Counted from the first letter of the stretch, positions 1 to 28,253 are shown. The stretch is DNA of 28,253 bases from a virus (IMGVR_UViG_3300028595_000052:1-28253), one strand, 5' to 3'. A program made the numbers and translations. Notes: a model not told the origin generated them from the letters alone.

Positions 1-143
1 TTATATTTTTTTACTCTGCAAACCCATTGTTCTCGCTCGTTGCAGTGAGCAAATTTTTATATTCAATCAGTTTCTTATTGAAACCGTTGAAGTCTGGATC
101 AATTTCATGGTATTCATATTTACCATCTTTTTTTAGCCATATA
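1..143. repeat. Terminal direct repeat, left copy
   Basis: These 143 bases recur at 28111-28253, differing at only three positions: 127 C against 28237 T, 134 T against 28244 A, and 136 G against 28246 T. The repeat covers the 3' end of the exonuclease gene and the last ten bases of the spacer beyond it. The simplest reading is that the sequence is circular or circularly permuted, with the assembled ends overlapping, giving a unit of 28,110 bp. The mismatches cluster at the inner end and keep the reading frame open in both copies, so they look like strain variation rather than random error. A true duplication cannot be excluded from the sequence alone. Confidence 0.9.
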
Positions 144-3390: not shown

Positions 3391-4578
3391 TTATTTATGA
3401 TATATATATGCTTTACCTGAAGTATCTCCACCTGCATCGTTTTCATGATTTGCTCCGACTATTGCATAACTATCTGATATCGCTACACTAAATCCGAAAT
3501 TGTCGACTTGTGAAGTACCGTATGCAGTAGGGTTGTCTAGTGTTGCAATTAAGGCTCCTGTTGCTGGATTAAATATGTATGCCTTACCTGACTGATATCC
3601 TCCTGCATCGTCTTCATAATATGCTCCGACTATAGCATAGTTGTCTGATATCGATACACTGTATCCGAAACGGTCTCCGTTAGAAGTGTTGTATGCATTA
3701 GGGTTATCTAGTGTGTGTAATAAGGTTCCTGTACTTGTGTCATATATGTATGCCTTACCTGACTCTGTTCCTCCAGCATCGTTTCCTTGGAATGCTCCAA
3801 CTATCGCATAATTGTTTGAGATAGATACACTGCTTCCGAAATAGTCGTTTCCTGAAGTTCCATATGGATTAGGGTTGTTTAAAGTATGTAGTAATTGTCC
3901 TGTCGCAGGATTGAAAATATATGCCTTACCTGATGATGTTCCTCCGGTATCGTCTTCCCATCTTGCTCCTACTATTGCATAATCGTCTGAAACAGATACA
4001 CTAAATCCGAAATTGTCGAATGCTGAGGTGTTGTATGCATTAGGGTTATCTAGTGTGTGTAATAAAGCACCTGTTTCCGGATTGAAAATATATGCTTTAC
4101 CTGAAGTATCTCCACCTGCATCGTCTTCATAATTTGCTCCGACTATTGCATAATTGTTTGAGATAGATACACTTATTCCGAAATTGTCGCCTGCTGAAGT
4201 GCTATATGCATTTACATTATCTATAATCCAAGTTAAGTTTGACGGGTAAGTAAATTCAGTTGTTGTTTCACTTGCACTTACTGCTCCACTACCACCTTTT
4301 CCACTTGTTTGTGCTGTTGCCCATATTGTATAAGATGTTTCTGCTGATAAATCACTTGATTCTAACACATCGCTTGTTGCTCCTCCTGCTAGCGTAATTA
4401 CATTTGCATCAGGAACATCATCTCCAACTTCCCAAAATATATCAGCCGTAGTACTTTCGTTGTTAGTTATAGTGAAATATATAGTGTTATATGTTGTCGA
4501 TTCTGTATCAATTGTGATTGTAGGTGCTTTTGTTTGTGAACCTCCACCACCTTTGCGGATTATCTTACCTTCTGCCAT
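3391..4578 (-). CDS. FG-GAP beta-propeller repeat protein with Ig-like N-terminal domain, likely receptor-binding
   Basis: A 395-residue protein. Residues about 17-112 form an Ig-like domain (KAPTITI, TNNEST, DVPDANV) matching a domain in the 1185-residue tail hub. Residues 131-395 are five tandem FG-GAP blades of 57 residues with the pattern DNFG.SVSIS..YAIVGA, then DDAGG..SGKAYIF and a TLDNPNAY link. The fifth blade is cut after 37 residues. FG-GAP repeats form integrin-alpha-like beta-propellers that bind ligands, often with calcium held by Asp-rich loops. The gene overlaps the fibre gene's stop and lies at the end of the tail genes, so a receptor-binding or decorating role is likely. Blade count and domain type are seen directly; the role is inferred. 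Confidence 0.85.
   Translation of the reverse strand: MAEGKIIRKGGGGSQTKAPTITIDTESTTYNTIYFTITNNESTTADIFWEVGDDVPDANVITLAGGATSDVLESSDLSAETSYTIWATAQTSGKGGSGAVSASETTTEFTYPSNLTWIIDNVNAYSTSAGDNFGISVSISNNYAIVGANYEDDAGGDTSGKAYIFNPETGALLHTLDNPNAYNTSAFDNFGFSVSVSDDYAIVGARWEDDTGGTSSGKAYIFNPATGQLLHTLNNPNPYGTSGNDYFGSSVSISNNYAIVGAFQGNDAGGTESGKAYIYDTSTGTLLHTLDNPNAYNTSNGDRFGYSVSISDNYAIVGAYYEDDAGGYQSGKAYIFNPATGALIATLDNPTAYGTSQVDNFGFSVAISDSYAIVGANHENDAGGDTSGKAYIYHK
3394..4188 (-). repeat. Tandem 171-bp repeats encoding FG-GAP blades
   Basis: Four full 171-base units and a final 111-base unit. Conservation is strong at the DNA level, for example around the segment encoding SGKAYIFNP. Differences concentrate at the residue after FG (I, F, S, Y, F) and the residues after IVGA (NYED, RWED, FQGN, YYED, NHEN). 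Units of this length and similarity can recombine, so copy number may vary between isolates. Confidence 0.85.
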
Positions 4579-18742: not shown

Positions 18743-18888
18743 TTACTATCCTTTATTTTTTGTTGCGCAGCAGCGTAACATACTTGTCTTCTTTTTTGCG
18801 GATCTGGATATTCTTTTTTAGTTTGTTCATCAGTCATACATACACGCATTATCTTCGTTAGCGATTTACTATCAATTATCTTTGGCAT
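18739..18888 (-). CDS. Small basic protein with two cysteines upstream of terminase
   Basis: A 49-residue protein beginning MPKIIDSKSLTKIMRVCMTD. The second half, KKEYPDPQKRRQVCYAAAQQ, resembles a short motif (Y/F-P-D-P-x-QR-x-A-x-C-Y) common in small phage proteins near the packaging genes. Two Cys at 17 and 38 might bind metal. It overlaps the DUF502 gene's end by 17 bases and the following gene by four (ATGA). The function is unknown. Confidence 0.7.
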   Translation of the reverse strand: MPKIIDSKSLTKIMRVCMTDEQTKKEYPDPQKRRQVCYAAAQQKIKDSK

Positions 18889-19384
18889 TATATATACCTA
18901 AACTTAATATTGTTTTCATCGCCTCTTCTGGTGTAATGTCTGTTTCTTCCCATTCATCAACCTTTAATACGAATCCGCTTGATACATTAGGTGCTGTCAT
19001 TACGAATACTAAACCTTGTTCTCTATTTGTTAAGAACCCTAATATCTTTTGACCAGCAAACCTTACTAACACTACTTCATCAAATCTACCGTCCGTAACT
19101 GCTACTCCTACAATGTCATTAAAGAAGTTGTAGATATTTTTTATAACTGGCATTCTATTTACTATTGGCAAGATCAATTTTTCAATCCAGCCATGTAACA
19201 ATATACCGCTAGTAACTATAACCACATATATTATGATTAAAGCGAACACCACAGTTATTAGATTTGATTCTAAGCCTATCAAAGATAAAAGGTTTAACAT
19301 TATACTAACAAACCAATATAACACCCCTAAGGTTGCTAATAATGGTAGTACTACTACTAAACCTTTCTTGAATAAATTTTTCAT
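18872..19384 (-). CDS. DUF502 (COG2928) family membrane protein
   Basis: A 170-residue protein matching the whole DUF502 pattern in order: two membrane helices (about 8-32 and 42-65), then the signature NRMPVIKNIYNFFNDIVG (77-93 region), FDEVVLVRF (101-109), a short beta region and APNVSSGFVLKVDEWEETDI (131-150) with the final PEEAMKTILSLGI (152-164). DUF502 proteins are membrane proteins of bacteria and plants with no settled function, and I would not expect one in a phage. AAGGAG sits five bases before ATG 19384. It lies early in the late operon, ahead of the packaging genes. A role in changing the host envelope, exclusion of other phages or lysis is speculative. Confidence 0.85.
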   Translation of the reverse strand: MKNLFKKGLVVVLPLLATLGVLYWFVSIMLNLLSLIGLESNLITVVFALIIIYVVIVTSGILLHGWIEKLILPIVNRMPVIKNIYNFFNDIVGVAVTDGRFDEVVLVRFAGQKILGFLTNREQGLVFVMTAPNVSSGFVLKVDEWEETDITPEEAMKTILSLGIYNAKDN

Positions 19385-20056: not shown

Positions 20057-20075
20057 AAGGGCTATAAAACCCCTT
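20057..20075 (-). terminator. Weak intrinsic terminator ending the early operon
   Basis: On the minus strand AAGGG (20075-20071) pairs with CCCTT (20061-20057) around a nine-base loop that includes the stop codon, followed by TTTTGTTTT-like sequence. The stem is only five pairs, so termination may be partial. It ends the nucleotide-metabolism and membrane-protein genes and is followed by the late leader. Confidence 0.45.
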
Positions 20076-20925
20076 CTTCTGTTGTTTTGTGCTTATCGCA
20101 ATAAGTTCTACATTCTTTTTTAATATTGTACTTATCATGTAGATGTTGTCTGTGTTTTGTCATTGTGTATTTTATTGATAAATAGAATTGAACGATTGCG
20201 GTTGATACAGCACTTAATATGTAACCACCTATGATAACTGATGCTACAATAGGGTCTTGCGTCCATACTAACCCAGCAGTTGCACCACCTAATGCTACAT
20301 ATCTAACTAAACCTACAACATTTGCTCTAACACGACCATATGTGATTGGATCATCTTTTAATAGTGAACCGTCTTTCACTGAATCTTGTTTCACTGTACC
20401 GTCTATTGTAATGATATCGTAATAGATAAACGGTTTAACAGGCTTTGTTCTTATAGGGTTTTGTTGTAAGTATTGAATTGAATTTTCAATATGTTCTGCT
20501 TGTTTACCTTTTTTTAGTAGTTCGTATTTTTTTCTTTTTAATTTTGTGATTTCTTTTGATGTTTTTAACTTGTCGGATTTTTCTTGTGCTGATAATGTTT
20601 TGTTTCTTGCATAGTCTTCACCGATTAAGTCATCTGATTCATCAAATTCTATTTCGCTTATTTGCTTTGCTAGGTTTTGTAATTCTTCACTTTCATCAAA
20701 TGCTTTTTGGTATCCTCTTTTTCTCCAATCTAATCTGATCCCATCAATACCCCACATGAATATGATTGCTACTATTGAAATCATTGACAACTTCAATCCA
20801 CCGATGTCTATGTTTTCTAAAAAACCCCAATAGAACAATAATACAATGATAGGTGTTACAAACTTTATTGCACTAATCAAGTCAGTTAAAACTTCATCTT
20901 TTAAAAATTTATTTAACCAATCCAT
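20062..20925 (-). CDS. Four-helix membrane protein, end of the early operon
   Basis: A 287-residue protein with hydrophobic helices at about 20-36, 44-60, 207-225 and 228-250. The cytoplasmic-like middle (about 65-190) is charged and helical with a coiled-coil stretch (SDKLKTSKEITKLKRKKYEL). The C-terminal tail has several His and Cys. AGAGG precedes ATG 20925, which overlaps the stop of the dCMP-hydroxymethylase-like gene. No family is recognised. A membrane anchor for replication or a role in infection exclusion are possibilities without direct support. Confidence 0.65.
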   Translation of the reverse strand: MDWLNKFLKDEVLTDLISAIKFVTPIIVLLFYWGFLENIDIGGLKLSMISIVAIIFMWGIDGIRLDWRKRGYQKAFDESEELQNLAKQISEIEFDESDDLIGEDYARNKTLSAQEKSDKLKTSKEITKLKRKKYELLKKGKQAEHIENSIQYLQQNPIRTKPVKPFIYYDIITIDGTVKQDSVKDGSLLKDDPITYGRVRANVVGLVRYVALGGATAGLVWTQDPIVASVIIGGYILSAVSTAIVQFYLSIKYTMTKHRQHLHDKYNIKKECRTYCDKHKTTEEGVL

Positions 20926-21638
20926 TATTTTTCCTCTTTTTTAGAATTTGCAATTCTTTTTAATAAATCATAATCTTTTTCATAGACGTGTGTTGAAATA
21001 CTATGATGTGTGTATGTTCCAATTTTTAAGTCTGGATAAAAATCCAATAATTCTTCAAAAACAATCTCTTGTAATAATGTAAAATATATAATATCATAAG
21101 GCAAACCGAAATTAAAATCATTACTTCTCATATTTACAAACAAACTTAGTTTATTATCTCTAATAAGAAATTGCAAATTCATAGTACAAGGAACATCTTT
21201 TGATGAAAATTGCGTTTCAAATGGTGTATTTAATACAACTATTGCTCTGCGTGTATCTTTATCTTTTTTCAATATTTCTATAACGTAATCTAATTGGTTT
21301 ATATTATGTTTGTTTTGAATTATATGTCCGTATGCACTATTGCATGTAATATTGTCATCTGATAATTTCGTCCAAAAGTTCGAAAAATTACTAATAAAAT
21401 TAAGGTCATTTTTACCCATTAAATACCATAGTAATTCACCAATTATGTATTTAATACTTAAATCTCGTTCTGTTAATGTAATTATTGATTTTAAAGGATC
21501 TGTTAATTCAAATGATGTATTAATCAATTCTTTTGTTTTTAGTCCTCTAGGACCAATTTCTTCACTTTCCATTAATCTATTAGCAAGTTCTATATACATT
21601 TCATTTGCTGATTCAAATGTACCTATATTTTTTTTCAT
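20925..21638 (-). CDS. Thymidylate-synthase-fold enzyme, probable dCMP hydroxymethylase (T4 gp42-like)
   Basis: A 237-residue enzyme of the thymidylate synthase superfamily. It has the catalytic Cys (PCTMNLQFLIRD, Cys151), the dimer-partner arginine pair (DTRRAI, Arg130/131), the RSND loop (171-174) and the C-terminal THVYE (216-220). The residue that is Asn in dUMP-specific synthases (LPFN) is Asp here (GLPYD, Asp182), as in T4 dCMP hydroxymethylase. Several stretches resemble T4 gp42, namely GLKTKELI, CT..LQFLIRD, VNMRSND..FG and S.HVY, while the rest diverges. It would transfer a one-carbon group from methylenetetrahydrofolate to dCMP, giving hydroxymethyl-dCMP. It overlaps the kinase gene (ATGA). 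Fold: firm. dCMP preference: likely. Product: inferred. Confidence 0.8.
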   Translation of the reverse strand: MKKNIGTFESANEMYIELANRLMESEEIGPRGLKTKELINTSFELTDPLKSIITLTERDLSIKYIIGELLWYLMGKNDLNFISNFSNFWTKLSDDNITCNSAYGHIIQNKHNINQLDYVIEILKKDKDTRRAIVVLNTPFETQFSSKDVPCTMNLQFLIRDNKLSLFVNMRSNDFNFGLPYDIIYFTLLQEIVFEELLDFYPDLKIGTYTHHSISTHVYEKDYDLLKRIANSKKEEK

Positions 21639-22105
21639 TTTTTTAACTCCATATCAATTTGTGATAAAACATCCATTGTATTGCTATAATATAATTTTGC
21701 TCCAATTCTTCGCGCAATAACTCTAAATATTTTATTTACAATTTTTAAGGTTTTTATTACACTTTCATCTTCATTTAATCTATCATGTAATCTTTTCAAA
21801 ATAACATTATCTTTTTCTGTCATAATTATAATATTATAATTTAACTCTTTAGTTTTTTTTAATAAAATATCAAATTGTTCTTGAGATAAATTACATTTTC
21901 TATCAAATATATATGGATAAATCATTTCGCCTATAAAATGTCTATCAAATATCACATTATTTTTTTCTAGTAAGTCCATATACCATTCAAATGTATTTGG
22001 GTCATTTCCATTTACGTGAATATATTCTAAATTATATTTTTCTTTCAAATAATTTGATACAGTACTTTTTCCTGTTCCATCAGCGCCTTCTATAATTATT
22101 CTCAT
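21635..22105 (-). CDS. Deoxynucleotide (thymidylate-like) kinase
   Basis: A 156-residue P-loop kinase. Walker A GADGTGKST at residues 7-15, the DR motif in IFDRHFIGEMIY (Asp54, Arg55) and a lid-like LKRLHDRLNED (103-113) match the dTMP-kinase/deoxynucleoside-kinase superfamily. At 156 residues it is shorter than typical dTMP kinases (about 200). It overlaps both the dUTPase (ATGA) and the dCMP-hydroxymethylase-like gene, so the three are translated together. In T4 a phage dNMP kinase phosphorylates hydroxymethyl-dCMP, and this enzyme may do the same. The substrate is not readable from the sequence. The gene is markedly AT-rich, more so than the virion genes. Confidence 0.85.
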   Translation of the reverse strand: MRIIIEGADGTGKSTVSNYLKEKYNLEYIHVNGNDPNTFEWYMDLLEKNNVIFDRHFIGEMIYPYIFDRKCNLSQEQFDILLKKTKELNYNIIIMTEKDNVILKRLHDRLNEDESVIKTLKIVNKIFRVIARRIGAKLYYSNTMDVLSQIDMELKK

Positions 22106-22509
22106 TTTCCCGTACTATTAAAAGCCCCTTTTCCTCTTTCTTCTAATTCATCAATGTTAAATGTGGGTAATACAATCGAATAAATAACTATTTGTCCAAC
22201 TCTTTCATTTTCTTCAATTATATAATCAACATTAGTTGTATTTGTTACTATAGCATGTATTTCTCCTTTGTATCCGCTATCAATTGGTGGCATTTGTGAA
22301 ATTATTCCTTTTTTTGCATGACCACTTCTAGGATATATTACAGCCATATAACCGTCTGGCAATTCTAAACCAAAACCTAGTTTCAATGCAATAGTTTCAT
22401 GTGCTCTTAATACTTGTTTTTCCATAGAATACACATCAGCACCAGCATCGTTATAATGATATCTTTTTGGTTTATTTTTGTAACCATAATTTATTAATTT
22501 TATATTCAT
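22102..22509 (-). CDS. dut: dUTPase
   Basis: A 135-residue trimeric-type dUTPase with all five motifs: I DAGADVYS (21-28), II PRSGHAKKG (60-68), III PPIDSGYKGEIHAIVTN (74-90, catalytic Asp77 and Tyr80), IV ERVGQ (102-106) and V RGKGAFNSTGK (125-135). Hydrolyses dUTP to dUMP and pyrophosphate, keeping uracil out of DNA and supplying dUMP. The ATG overlaps the stop of the small membrane gene upstream, with AGAGG nearby. It is the first enzyme of the overlapping nucleotide cassette. Confidence 0.92.
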   Translation of the reverse strand: MNIKLINYGYKNKPKRYHYNDAGADVYSMEKQVLRAHETIALKLGFGLELPDGYMAVIYPRSGHAKKGIISQMPPIDSGYKGEIHAIVTNTTNVDYIIEENERVGQIVIYSIVLPTFNIDELEERGKGAFNSTGK

Positions 22510-22673
22510 TATTTTTCCTCTTTTTCTATATAGATCTGAATTCCTTCTCTACTCATTTCAGTTAGCCAATCTTCCAAATCTTCAACCCTATATCTTAAAT
22601 TGCTTAATAAATATATTAAATAACCAATAACCATTGATAAAAATATAACTGCTGTTGTAAAAATTATCTCCAT
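22509..22673 (-). CDS. Small single-pass membrane protein
   Basis: A 54-residue protein with one hydrophobic helix (about 4-26: FTTAVIFLSMVIGYLIYLL) and a charged helical tail ending IEKEEK. Its stop overlaps the dUTPase start (TAATG), and it starts two bases past the previous stop (ATG 22673). Small membrane proteins of this shape occur among early phage genes and may affect host membranes. No family is recognised. Confidence 0.7.
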   Translation of the reverse strand: MEIIFTTAVIFLSMVIGYLIYLLSNLRYRVEDLEDWLTEMSREGIQIYIEKEEK

Positions 22674-22674
22674 A

Positions 22675-22920
22675 TTATTTTTCTATCCTTTCATTTAAAA
22701 CATCTTCTATTGTCCAACCATATCTATCTAATATTGCAAATAGTAATATCGTTACATCGCTTATTTTTAGTTTTAAGCCATTTTCTTTATAAATAGGTAT
22801 AAAGTGCTTACTTGCATCGCTAACAGCCGTTAGAAGTGAAAATATAAGGTTATGTGGCGTGTCTAACTTATCTTTACCATTGGTTTTTCTGTAAATAACT
22901 GCTTTTTGCACTTGATCCAT
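22675..22920 (-). CDS. Small hypothetical protein, faintly MazG-like
   Basis: An 81-residue helical protein with GAGG seven bases before ATG 22920. The C-terminal DVTILLFAILDRYGWTIEDV plus LNERIEK recalls the last helix pair of MazG-type nucleotide pyrophosphohydrolases (GDVLWYL...). The first half lacks the EExxE motif that would bind metal, so catalytic activity is doubtful. The gene lies beside the nucleotide cassette. It overlaps the previous ORF by 58 bases, an unusually long overlap. Unknown function; the MazG likeness is weak. Confidence 0.6.
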   Translation of the reverse strand: MDQVQKAVIYRKTNGKDKLDTPHNLIFSLLTAVSDASKHFIPIYKENGLKLKISDVTILLFAILDRYGWTIEDVLNERIEK

Positions 22921-23182: not shown

Positions 23183-23386
23183 TTAGAATGGTAAATCTTC
23201 ATCAACACTTAATATTATGTGTGCAGGAAGTTTTTTGTTGTATATTGGTCTTAAACTTTTGAATTCGCTTAATTCGTTTTTGTATAACATGTTATCGTAT
23301 AAACTTTTTAGATAGTGTTGCATTCTATCCATGTCACCACCAAATTCTTTTAAGCACCATTCTTGTATATCTCTGTAAACTTTCAT
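23183..23386 (-). CDS. Small protein ending in an SSB-like acidic tip (DEDLPF)
   Basis: A 67-residue protein beginning MKVYRDIQEWCLKEFGG with helical N-terminal 40 residues. Its last residues, SVDEDLPF, match the acidic-hydrophobic tip (DDDIPF) by which SSB recruits repair and replication partners. The phage's own SSB-like protein ends EDESIPF. GAGG is about six bases before ATG 23386. It follows the helicase-loader-like gene. The tip suggests that it docks onto, or competes for, SSB-binding proteins. The rest of the protein matches no family I know. Confidence 0.7.
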   Translation of the reverse strand: MKVYRDIQEWCLKEFGGDMDRMQHYLKSLYDNMLYKNELSEFKSLRPIYNKKLPAHIILSVDEDLPF

Positions 23387-23904
23387 TGTAACCTCTTGAT
23401 GTCTGTTAATTTGTTTACCACTGTGTTTGTTGCTAATTGTTTTTGATTCTTAATTCTTGTTTTTCCTGTGCTTGTATAAAAGTCCCTGTATTGCGATCTC
23501 ATTGTATTTATACTTTTTTGATCGCTTAAACCTAATTGCATAAAATATGTTTCTGTAACTATTTGTTTTTCTATGTCATTCATTTGTTCGTATGCATTTT
23601 TGTAATTATAAACCCCGTATTGTTGTATTAGTTTTATAATTCTATCAAAACTTGAGTATGCTTCATCTTGTGTTGTTTCTGCTGTCATTTGATTTAATAA
23701 ATCGGATACCGTTGGTGGAAATTGATTACCAAGCATCATGTAACTTCTAAAAGCGGATATAACATATTCAAATTCAATGTCTTGTAATATATCAAACCAT
23801 AACTGCATCAATATCTTCATTTGTTCAGGTGTTCTATCTTTTTTGAACATTGGATAAACTGCTGATATTGCTTCTGATAGTTTTAGCATGTCCTGTTTTA
23901 CCAT
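23383..23904 (-). CDS. Helicase-loader-like replication protein (G39P-type)
   Basis: A 173-residue protein. The N-terminal domain fits the SPP1 G39P/loader pattern: YPMFKKDRTPEQMKILMQLW (about 17-36), DIEFEYVISAFRSYM (42-56) and FPPTVSDLLNQM (62-73). Such proteins bring the host replicative helicase to the origin. The C-terminal region is helical and basic. It overlaps the initiator gene upstream, as initiator and loader genes usually do. No phage helicase or polymerase is encoded here, so the phage would depend on host DnaB/DnaC-type enzymes. N-terminal resemblance is good. Exact mechanism is inferred. Confidence 0.75.
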   Translation of the reverse strand: MVKQDMLKLSEAISAVYPMFKKDRTPEQMKILMQLWFDILQDIEFEYVISAFRSYMMLGNQFPPTVSDLLNQMTAETTQDEAYSSFDRIIKLIQQYGVYNYKNAYEQMNDIEKQIVTETYFMQLGLSDQKSINTMRSQYRDFYTSTGKTRIKNQKQLATNTVVNKLTDIKRLQ

Positions 23905-24536
23905 TCTAAATCACCTATACTATAATCGCTATTACTTTCTTTTTGGTTTAAATAACTTTCAAATTTAGTTCCAAACAAAGTTTCAGGTCTTAGATATTTA
24001 ACCATGTCATTGTTTCCCCACTCATTATACTTTTTATCAATTACAGTTATAAAGTCTTCATAAGTAAAACCTTCATTCAATCTTGCTTCAATCTTTTCTC
24101 TTGTTTTAGGAGTTGTGTATTTATATTTTCCGTCTATTGTTTTGTTTAGATACAATACAATGTTTTTAATAATATCTTTATCTTTATCTTTATCTTTATC
24201 TTTATCCTTATCTTTATCTTTATCCTTATCCGCTTGTTTCGCTAGCATTTGCTTGCGTTCGCTACCGTTCGCTACCGTTTGCTTACTTTTGTTTGAACCG
24301 CCTTTTGATCCGTTAATAGCGTTGATTTCACAACGTTTTTTGTATTTGTTGAGATCTCTTTCAAACTGATTTCTAATTATTTTGAACAACATATTAGCAC
24401 CTGGGTCAATGTCTATTTCTGTTCTATCATGAACATATGCAAACAATGCTTTTATCAATTTACCTGCTTGTTCATCGGATAGATCATCAAATAATTCTCT
24501 CCATTCTTTGTATAAAACAAAGTTGTTTTTTTCCAT
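23898..24536 (-). CDS. Phage replication initiator (DnaD-like, DUF6291 N-terminus)
   Basis: A 212-residue protein in two domains joined by a linker. Residues about 1-80 carry a DUF6291-like winged-helix pattern (YKEWRELFDDLSDEQAGKLI, then FAYVHD), followed by KYKKRCEINAINGSKGGSNK, a hallmark of the family. The linker (about 85-122) is Gln/Lys/Asp-rich with ten alternating Asp-Lys units. The C-terminal domain (about 125-205) holds TREKIEARLNEGFTYEDF and KYLRPETLFGTKFESYLN, the conserved phage replisome C-terminus. It probably binds the origin within its own gene. The ATG at 24536 has an AGGAGG site upstream. Confidence 0.85.
   Translation of the reverse strand: MEKNNFVLYKEWRELFDDLSDEQAGKLIKALFAYVHDRTEIDIDPGANMLFKIIRNQFERDLNKYKKRCEINAINGSKGGSNKSKQTVANGSERKQMLAKQADKDKDKDKDKDKDKDKDKDIIKNIVLYLNKTIDGKYKYTTPKTREKIEARLNEGFTYEDFITVIDKKYNEWGNNDMVKYLRPETLFGTKFESYLNQKESNSDYSIGDLEW
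24174..24289 (-). other. Candidate origin of replication: iterons plus AT-rich repeats inside the initiator gene
   Basis: Five tandem 10-base units at 24240-24289 (plus strand consensus YGCTNNCGTT; two are identical CGCTACCGTT at 24260-24279) lie beside a 57-base AT-rich tract of six-base units (GATAAA/GATAAG on the minus strand, 24174-24230). The 10-base period is not a multiple of three, so the repeat is at DNA level, not protein level. An iteron block next to an AT-rich unwinding tract inside an initiator gene's linker is the arrangement of lambda ori within O. It is an inference, but the layout is striking. Confidence 0.55.
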
Positions 24537-25264: not shown

Positions 25265-25843
25265 CTAAAAATCTCTATAAGGCCTTAAACCTGATTTTTC
25301 AATGAATCTTTTTGATCTGTTTTCAAACATTGTTTTATATATTTTTAATGTGGAATGTTCTACACCGTATTTCTGTTTTATATTTTCGTATGTCATTCTA
25401 CCACTGTACCACATAAACAAACAATGCATTTTCAAATCACCACGAACTACATATTCGTACATTTCTTTTTCTGTTTCTTCTAAAACTACATCTAATTCAA
25501 TTTCGGGATCTACCTTTAGTTGCATTTCAAGTTGATCGCCTTTTGATGTTTCGAATTCTAACGATGCTAAATTTTCATTTATTTTTCTTTTAAGATATTG
25601 TCTTAAGTGTATTTCTCTGTGCCAACTGTTTTTAATTGCTGTGTATGCATATGTACTAAAAGCATAACCTTTTGATGAATCATACTTTTGTGCTGCTCTC
25701 CATAGTCCATCTAACCCTATTTGTATGATGTCGCTTGGATCAACATTGTTTATAACTAATCTTGGCTTATAATAATTATAATAAGCATCATAGACAAGTT
25801 TTACATTATCGTAAAATAATTTTTTCGGTGATAATTCTTCCAT
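25265..25843 (-). CDS. Phage sigma-70-family factor
   Basis: A 192-residue protein from ATG 25843 (a TTG at 25852 is possible; both overlap the previous gene). Residues about 35-77 are a clear sigma region 2: DPSDIIQIGLDGLWRAAQKY, then SSKGYAFSTYAYTAIKNSW. Residues about 150-185 hold a region-4-like helix-turn-helix (MTYENIKQKYGVEHSTLKIY). There is no region 1 or 3, so it resembles short sigma factors or phage sigma-like regulators. It could redirect host RNA polymerase to late genes. Its place in the early block suits this. The target promoters are not known. Confidence 0.8.
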   Translation of the reverse strand: MEELSPKKLFYDNVKLVYDAYYNYYKPRLVINNVDPSDIIQIGLDGLWRAAQKYDSSKGYAFSTYAYTAIKNSWHREIHLRQYLKRKINENLASLEFETSKGDQLEMQLKVDPEIELDVVLEETEKEMYEYVVRGDLKMHCLFMWYSGRMTYENIKQKYGVEHSTLKIYKTMFENRSKRFIEKSGLRPYRDF

Positions 25844-26933
25844 TTTTTCCAAACTTTTCTAGCAAAACAGCAGGGTTAGAAGATAACATCAAGTTCTTTT
25901 CATAATTAGTAATCGTTGGCTTACAACTTGGTACAGCGGTGTAATCTGTATCGTAATTTTTTCTTGCGTGTAATACTTCGTTTAAGTAATGATGAATGTG
26001 TCCAAAATAGAAGTAATCAATATCAATTCTTCTATCTGCCATTTTCTTTTCAATATAAGATGATGCTTTTCTCATATTATGCCCATGTTCTAAATAGAAA
26101 TTGAAACCGTTTATATTTACAAATAGTTCATCATCAAAATATAAATCTACATTTGGATTATTTTCTAAACCAACACTTAATACAGCAGTTAGAAACTGTA
26201 ATAAATCTTCTTGTTGCATTTCATTTCTTCCTGTTTGTAATATTCTTGTTTGTGTATGATTGCTTGATTGCACTTGATAAATATGCAAAATCATTTTTTG
26301 GCTTAATTTTTGTAAGAAATGTAAGTAGTGAACAGCGTATTCTCGCATTTGTTCAACTGCGCCTAACTTTGAATCCATTGCTGCGCTAACTCTGAGTAAT
26401 CCTTCTGTTTCGTCGCCCAAACCGAATATATATAACTCTGGTAGGTTTCTTTCAATAATAATGTTATACAAACGATTGAAATGTTCTTTTAGATCAAAGT
26501 TACCGTCGTAATGTAAATCAGCATGAGATAATAACCACCATTCTCCTTGTTGTATAGGTTGTTTAGTGTATAACTTAACTTCATTTTGAATAGGAATATA
26601 ATCATATTCAGGAAAATCAATATCTTTGATAACATCTTCAATCAAATCTTTAAGAGCATATTCTCTTGTTGTTTTGTTTATTAATTGCCTTTGTAATATT
26701 ACTTTTTTTCGTTTTGTTTCTATATCTAATTCTTTTCTTGCTAATAATTCGAGATCATCATCGACTGTGAAGTTTGAATGTAAACCGTCTTTATAACTTA
26801 CATATCTTTTTCTAAATGTCGATTCATCATAATCTGTTCCAAAATATTCATTGCAAATATTTGCCTTATCTTTATAATTCAAATGTTCGTTTGCACGATA
26901 TATTTCGTAAATTTTTTTGTTATCTAATTTCAT
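25806..26933 (-). CDS. Metallophosphoesterase with N-terminal helix-turn-helix region
   Basis: A 375-residue protein. The calcineurin-like metal motifs are at HADLHYD (Asp139, His141), LGDETEG (Asp174), SSNHTQTR (Asn225, His226), EHGH (His283, His285) and GHIHH (His312, His314). The N-terminal about 60 residues (YKDKANICNEYFGTDYDEST) look like a helix-turn-helix. The ATG at 26933 follows GAGG. Related phage enzymes act as nucleases or phosphatases in DNA metabolism. The substrate here is not clear. It overlaps the sigma gene by about 38 bases. Confidence 0.85.
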   Translation of the reverse strand: MKLDNKKIYEIYRANEHLNYKDKANICNEYFGTDYDESTFRKRYVSYKDGLHSNFTVDDDLELLARKELDIETKRKKVILQRQLINKTTREYALKDLIEDVIKDIDFPEYDYIPIQNEVKLYTKQPIQQGEWWLLSHADLHYDGNFDLKEHFNRLYNIIIERNLPELYIFGLGDETEGLLRVSAAMDSKLGAVEQMREYAVHYLHFLQKLSQKMILHIYQVQSSNHTQTRILQTGRNEMQQEDLLQFLTAVLSVGLENNPNVDLYFDDELFVNINGFNFYLEHGHNMRKASSYIEKKMADRRIDIDYFYFGHIHHYLNEVLHARKNYDTDYTAVPSCKPTITNYEKNLMLSSNPAVLLEKFGKNGRIITEKIILR

Positions 26934-28110: not shown

Positions 28111-28253
28111 TTATATTTTTTTACTCTGCAAACCCATTGTTCTCGCTCGTTGCAGTGAGCAAATTTTTATATTCAATCAGTTTCTTATTGAAACCGTTGA
28201 AGTCTGGATCAATTTCATGGTATTCATATTTACCATTTTTTTTAATCCATATA
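28111..28253. repeat. Terminal direct repeat, right copy
   Basis: Repeats positions 1-143 with three substitutions (28237, 28244, 28246). In the minus-strand nuclease frame two codons change: CTA to ATT (Leu to Ile) and GAT to AAT (Asp to Asn). The frame stays open. It indicates joined ends with strain variation in the source population. Confidence 0.9.
28121..28253 (-). CDS. PD-(D/E)XK exonuclease, partial second copy (3' end only)
   Basis: The 3' end of the same exonuclease gene as at 11-610, cut by the window edge. The codons read IWIKKNGKYEYHE where the other copy has IWLKKDGKYEYHE. The stop is at 28121-28123. If the ends join, this is the same gene rather than a second one. Confidence 0.8.
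   Translation of the reverse strand, partial: IWIKKNGKYEYHEIDPDFNGFNKKLIEYKNLLTATSENNGFAE

Follow-up and report, generated by a model that had tools for sequence, protein, structure and literature searches.

Known phages with hydroxymethylcytosine (hmC) that resemble T4 or VPE25 have large genomes and encode a polymerase and glucosyltransferases, and T4 also has a dCTPase. The DNA of the Enterococcus phage VPE25 carries a modified, glucosylated cytosine; it is resistant to MspI as well as to bisulfite conversion, and PvuRts1I cuts it (PMC4999554). Hydroxymethylation has a sequence signature consisting of an Asp three residues before the Cys and a Ser-x-Tyr motif, which in T4 gp42 are Asp145, Ser94 and Tyr96 (PMC6400193). 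In MilA, a CMP 5-hydroxymethylase of mildiomycin synthesis, the preference for CMP stems from Ala176 and Lys133 (PMC5175136). The MetaGPA study found that the positions equivalent to residues 177 and 147 of ThyA are those associated with modified-cytosine contigs (PMC8670742).

Here, the window (the whole stretch of viral DNA that was analysed, IMGVR_UViG_3300028595_000052, 28,253 nucleotides) was found to hold a cassette of three genes, for a dUTPase, a small kinase and an enzyme with the thymidylate synthase (TS) fold. With a probability of roughly 0.75, we propose that these genes make hydroxymethyl-dCTP (hm-dCTP), that the host replisome inserts it to give partial, plain 5hmC, and that the cassette was acquired recently.

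Genome closure and layout of the cassette

The two ends of the window overlap (1..143 and 28111..28253) at 98% identity, the three mismatches lying close to one end; the right copy repeats the 3' end of an exonuclease gene (11-610) in like orientation. IMG/VR classes the record as linear; judged by the overlap, it very probably represents a whole circular genome with a length of about 28,110 bp. The 143-bp overlap ruled out that the lack of polymerase and glucosyltransferase genes is an artefact of a fragment; as the circular genome is whole, gene absences are meaningful and not due to a missing piece.

All recognised genes are on one strand. They comprise virion genes (terminase, portal, scaffold, head and tail), genes for Erf, an exonuclease, RusA, HNH and an SbcD-like exonuclease, and a replication module in which family scans recognised a G39P-like helicase loader (23383-23904, minus strand) and a DnaD/Phg_2220-type initiator (23898-24536, minus strand). 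The phage also encodes a protein with sigma-70 region 2 (25265-25852), and a gene in the tail region (3391-4578) contains four tandem repeat copies with a period of 171 bp. An earlier note on this DNA had stated that there is no phage polymerase and no glucosyltransferase. Both absences were borne out in the closed genome, where there was no match to PF00476, PF00136 or PF07733 (polymerase families A, B and C) or to PF09198 (T4-type beta-glucosyltransferase), as far as profile searches reach, since divergent families can escape them. Among the ORFs that were scanned, family searches recognised no other glycosyltransferase, no carbamoyltransferase and no dCTPase.

The nearest whole-genome relative found was the pink-berry phage LS06-2018-MD08 (OP947164; hereafter MD08), a circular genome of 33.4 kb with identities of 59% for TerL, 67% for the major head protein, 47% for the portal and 59% for Erf. 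A DUF502 membrane protein (18872-19384) is common to both (30% identity). No close terminase kin was found in IMG/VR using peptide patterns, and megablast of half of the window against known phages found none. The portal and terminase matches may point, loosely, to phages of Bacillota.

The cassette consists of three minus-strand ORFs within 20925-22509, and both inner junctions are ATGA overlaps, as had been described before. The first gene encodes a dUTPase of the trimeric type (22102..22509, 135 aa; Pfam PF00692, E=3.5e-20, residues 14-134). It is followed by a P-loop nucleotide monophosphate kinase (21635..22105, 156 aa; Thymidylate_kin PF02223, E=1.7e-8), proposed to be a hydroxymethyl-dCMP (hm-dCMP) kinase, and by a TS-fold enzyme (20925..21638, 237 aa; Thymidylat_synt PF00303, E=6.5e-29), a putative dCMP hydroxymethylase by its Pfam and PDB matches, residues, model and tree. 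Shine-Dalgarno-like sites precede the dUTPase and hydroxymethylase genes, and the stop codon of the latter overlaps the ATG of the next gene (TAATG). The ORF directly 3' of the cassette (20062..20925, minus strand, 287 aa) is membrane-protein-like and weakly resembles a pink-berry phage ORF (23%, E=9e-5); family scans recognised no enzyme family in it. Upstream of the cassette lies a MazG-like ORF of 81 aa (22675..22920, minus strand; PF12643, E=0.01, below cut-off), which matches the intact MazG protein of MD08 at 32% over 37 aa. It is a doubtful dCTPase because the usual metal-binding glutamates, which are seen in the protein of the relative, are absent.

The TS-fold enzyme, its partners and its relatives

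The residue that had drawn attention to this enzyme was Asp182, said to stand where dUMP enzymes have Asn. The alignment placed Asp182 opposite Asp179 of T4 gp42 and Asn177 of E. coli ThyA, so that the position indeed holds Asp and not Asn. The claimed resemblance to T4 gp42 was also real (PDB 1b49, E=6e-17), with MilA nearer still (5jnh, E=5e-28). The nucleophile is Cys151, and the phosphate-binding arginines are present (Arg130, Arg131 and Arg171). Agreement with T4 gp42 extends to the residues for the choice of cytosine (Asp182 and Thr152), for the choice of deoxyribose (Ser172 and Arg130), and for the addition of water versus hydride transfer (Asp148, Ser101 and Tyr103). Asp148, three residues before Cys151, and Ser101-x-Tyr103 make up the hydroxymethylation signature. 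The MilA residues for CMP preference are not found, their positions being occupied by Ser172 and Arg130. After Tyr219 only 18 residues follow, versus 28 in T4 gp42 and 55 in ThyA, and the C-terminal tail that seals the site of ThyA is missing.

Residues were counted in ThyA and 98 aligned phage-type members of the family. Asp at the position of Asp182 was always paired with Thr at that of Thr152 in the 74 cytosine-type sequences, and all 24 dUMP-hydroxymethylase-type sequences, among them the dUMP hydroxymethylase SPO1 gp29, had Asn at both positions. The ThyA pair is Asn177/His147, in place of which the 237-aa enzyme has Asp/Thr. Asp was present at the position of Asp148 in 98 of the 98 phage-type sequences, where ThyA has Leu143. 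The AlphaFold2 model of the enzyme had a pLDDT of 94.3, and its first 11 fold matches in the PDB were MilA and T4 gp42, ahead of any dUMP enzyme; sequence and fold searches both put MilA first. Every published determinant of dCMP hydroxymethylases that could be checked is thus carried by the enzyme, and we consider the predicted dCMP hydroxymethylase activity very likely.

A dUTPase, a TS and a dTMP-kinase-like gene would also form the textbook set for dTTP, and the homologues carry the name thymidylate synthase in databases. The enzyme could accordingly be an ordinary thymidylate synthase or a dUMP hydroxymethylase which, together with the dUTPase and kinase, raises dTTP or makes hm-dUTP. This is highly improbable given Asp182/Thr152 in place of Asn/His or Asn/Asn and a score far under the cut-off of the ThyA equivalog models (82.9 of 327 bits), and in the tree the enzyme branches with cytosine-type enzymes, outside the SPO1 gp29 clade. 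The cytosine-type base pocket would also suit a dCMP methylase like the one described for phage XP12, through which DNA would come to contain 5-methylcytosine, and work cited in PMC8670742 describes a single Asn-to-Asp change that makes ThyA a dCMP methylase. However, Asp148 replaces ThyA Leu143, Ser101 is present, the C-terminal tail required to close the site for hydride transfer is absent, and relatives pair the enzyme with DNA glucosyltransferases, which require a hydroxyl acceptor. Methylation of dCMP is therefore very unlikely, and hydroxymethylation is the reading followed below.

In the tree the enzyme belonged to a clade of 32 members (support 98/95), together with those of the Lactobacillus phage ATCCB, the Enterococcus phages VPE25 and Planchet, and many metagenomic phages. 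The kinase gene lies within 3 kb and on the same strand as the hydroxymethylase gene in 30 of the 32 clade loci, and a dUTPase gene is near it in 25. Kinase and hydroxymethylase are naturally fused into a single ORF of some 432-438 aa at five loci (L036:5500-6813, L037:3509-4822, L032:5497-6810, L040:5470-6768 and L029:1483-2799). Relatives also encode decorating enzymes, namely beta-glucosyltransferase and, in L018, alpha-glucosyltransferase. Experimentally, the clade is best supported by the VPE25 DNA data, which bear on the window by analogy with another phage. Among the clade members with long contigs that were examined, most encode their own polymerase or a divergent polymerase-like ORF. 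Several relatives of 39-51 kb had seemed to lack a polymerase, which was weakened by a conserved ORF of ~570 aa, read as a divergent polymerase and giving no match in Pfam; no ORF of unknown function of this size was found among the early genes of the window.

Three side observations were made on other loci with these genes. In L023-L027 and L034 a conserved SAM methyltransferase adjoins the cytosine hydroxymethylase, and a T4-type glucosyltransferase was not found there; the methyltransferase possibly provides a different decoration of hmC. Two ORFs (L097:8-1195 and L038:3680-4837) have a kinase-like N-terminus and a C-terminal part that appears glycosyltransferase-like by eye, the one in L097 having no Pfam match. 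In L091, a contig of a horse-faeces archaeon MAG, the TS-fold frame is split into short ORFs and the kinase frame has three in-frame TGA codons, which suggests a phage in which TGA codes for an amino acid.

The best solved relative of the kinase is YorR of SPbeta. Its subfamily had 17 records in known phages, 13 of them in the same Enterococcus and Lactobacillus phages. Based on its family, the conserved adjacency and the five fusions, the kinase is proposed to act on hm-dCMP.

In the dUTPase, motifs 1 to 5 are present as AGADVYS, PRSG, IDSGYKGE, RVGQ and RGKGAFNSTG. The uracil-contact loop of motif III reads SQMPPID, unlike the canonical NxxGxID, and there was a weak match to a dCTP-deaminase profile. 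This protein, or another small one, might also destroy dCTP in the manner of T4 gp56, in which case hm-dCMP would be made and cytosine replaced nearly completely. The frequent presence of a dUTPase gene in the clade and the second dUTPase-fold protein encoded elsewhere in the VPE25 and Planchet genomes would agree with such a role. However, the Dulem virus 37 dUTPase has CELPPID in the equivalent loop and adjoins ThyX and a dCMP deaminase. Because this setting fits a plain dUTPase, the dCTPase role was weakened and kept only as a rival; palindrome avoidance, described below, also speaks against full protection. Near-complete replacement appears unlikely, and partial replacement is preferred.

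Composition, flanking repeat and palindrome avoidance

The GC content of the cassette genes is 0.22-0.30, and their GC3 values of 0.125-0.143 are the three lowest of 40 genes (early genes 0.239, late genes 0.256). The cassette is hence more AT-rich than the virion genes, as the earlier note had observed in suggesting a separate acquisition. An exact 19-bp direct repeat, AAAAAGAGGAAAAATAATG, encloses precisely the three cassette genes. Its upstream copy (22507..22525, minus strand) forms the Shine-Dalgarno site and ATG of the dUTPase gene, and its downstream copy (20923..20941, minus strand) the end of the hydroxymethylase gene with the Shine-Dalgarno site and ATG of the next gene. The repeat includes a ribosome-binding site and start codon, so that some likeness between the copies is expected. 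Among the start regions, the pair that ranks next agrees at 16 of 19 positions, and any exact 19-bp repeat occurred in 1 of 60 simulated genomes. Together, the foreign composition and the bracketing repeat support a separate acquisition.

Palindromic tetramers are strongly depleted outside the cassette, where AGCT is absent (0 vs 67 expected) and ACGT (9 vs 42), TCGA (17 vs 50) and CCGG (4 vs 16) are rare. Over the whole genome, AGCT was found 0 times vs 68 expected, and all four had lower ratios than any of the non-palindromic tetramers tested, among which the minimum was 0.40. Within the cassette avoidance was not seen, at small counts (ACGT 3 vs 1.7 expected, TCGA 2 vs 1.1). The overall palindrome ratio shows strong avoidance in the window (0.60) and in MD08 (0.51), where AGCT, CATG and GCGC are missing or nearly so, and little avoidance in VPE25 (0.92) and in ATCCB, Planchet, T4 and SPO1 (0.80-0.86). 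The depletion apparently reflects avoidance of restriction sites.

These results bear on the claim that the modification protects the DNA from restriction. A protective role can be kept as a prediction, but established protection is doubtful, since palindromes outside the cassette are strongly avoided, unlike in VPE25, T4 and SPO1. As the sites are still avoided, effective protection would not be long-standing. The avoidance in the remaining genome, the lowest GC3 and the flanking repeats could also fit a recent passenger that is barely or not at all expressed or functional, with ordinary virion DNA. With three intact overlapping ORFs, Shine-Dalgarno-like sites before two of them and all catalytic residues kept, we regard an idle cassette as rather unlikely. 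The simplest reading is that cytosine in this lineage was unprotected during its evolution, the cassette being a recent gain; the site-avoiding backbone and the non-avoiding cassette would then serve as a clock for the acquisition within one genome.

Proposed pathway and known systems

In the proposed pathway, the TS-fold enzyme would use dCMP and methylene-tetrahydrofolate. Cys151 would attack C6 of the cytosine while Asp182 holds the protonated N3, an exocyclic methylene would form, and water activated by Asp148 and Ser101 would be added to give 5-hydroxymethyl-dCMP. The small kinase would convert this to hm-dCDP. The host kinase makes hm-dCTP from hm-dCDP, and here the nucleoside-diphosphate kinase of the host would take this step, while the dUTPase would clear dUTP. 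The DnaD-like initiator and the helicase loader would recruit the host replisome, which would insert hm-dCTP in competition with host dCTP, so that part of the cytosines become plain 5hmC. The cassette itself may have been acquired at or through the 19-bp repeat.

Entry of the modified base through the host polymerase, put forward in the earlier note, is the only route visible in the closed genome. This use of the cassette is without tested precedent here because the long-contig clade members that were examined mostly encode a polymerase or polymerase-like ORF. The term hypermodification should be dropped, because nothing recognised would decorate the hydroxyl: neither a glucosyltransferase nor a carbamoyltransferase nor any other enzyme that could do so was recognised in the genome. 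As a sugar-adding enzyme, a DNA polymerase and a recognised dCTPase are missing, the DNA is probably only partly modified, and a mosaic of C and hmC is predicted because host dCTP would compete. Plain, partial hmC in virion DNA is thus the best prediction. That the window represents a minimal phage which depends on the host polymerase and has only lately gained an hmC cassette, with an unglucosylated hmC/C mosaic, no dedicated dCTPase and a lineage that deletes restriction sites, we hold to be about evenly balanced. New here are the closure of the circle, which makes the lack of a polymerase and T4-type glucosyltransferase real, the bracketing 19-bp repeat, the lowest GC3 and the palindrome avoidance. 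If a 28-kb phage that replicates with the host replisome needs no more than three genes, cytosine modification can be passed on as a compact mobile module, and the phage would offer a direct test of how partial modification pays off.

Compared with known systems, T4 gp42 is like the 237-aa enzyme in all catalytic and selectivity residues, the short C-terminus and the fold, whereas the polymerase, glucosyltransferases and dCTPase of T4 have no recognised counterpart in the window. Of the solved structures, MilA comes nearest in both sequence and fold; it differs in Ala176 and Lys133, where the window enzyme has Ser172 and Arg130. The cytosine-modified contigs of MetaGPA (PMC8670742) are alike in the Asp at ThyA position 177 and the change at 147 but are often paired with carbamoyltransferases, which were not recognised in the window. 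MD08 is likewise a small circular genome without an annotated polymerase; the cassette is absent from it, and it has instead the intact MazG protein and a gene annotated as DNA methyltransferase. The VPE25/VFW and Planchet genomes differ in their size of 85-87 kb, their own PolIII-alpha polymerase, their DNA glycosyltransferases and the lack of strong palindrome avoidance. Their cassettes (kinase, TS-type hydroxymethylase, dUTPase and glycosyltransferases) nevertheless have three families in common with that of the window, in one cluster, with identities of 38-43% for the hydroxymethylase and 49-52% for the dUTPase.
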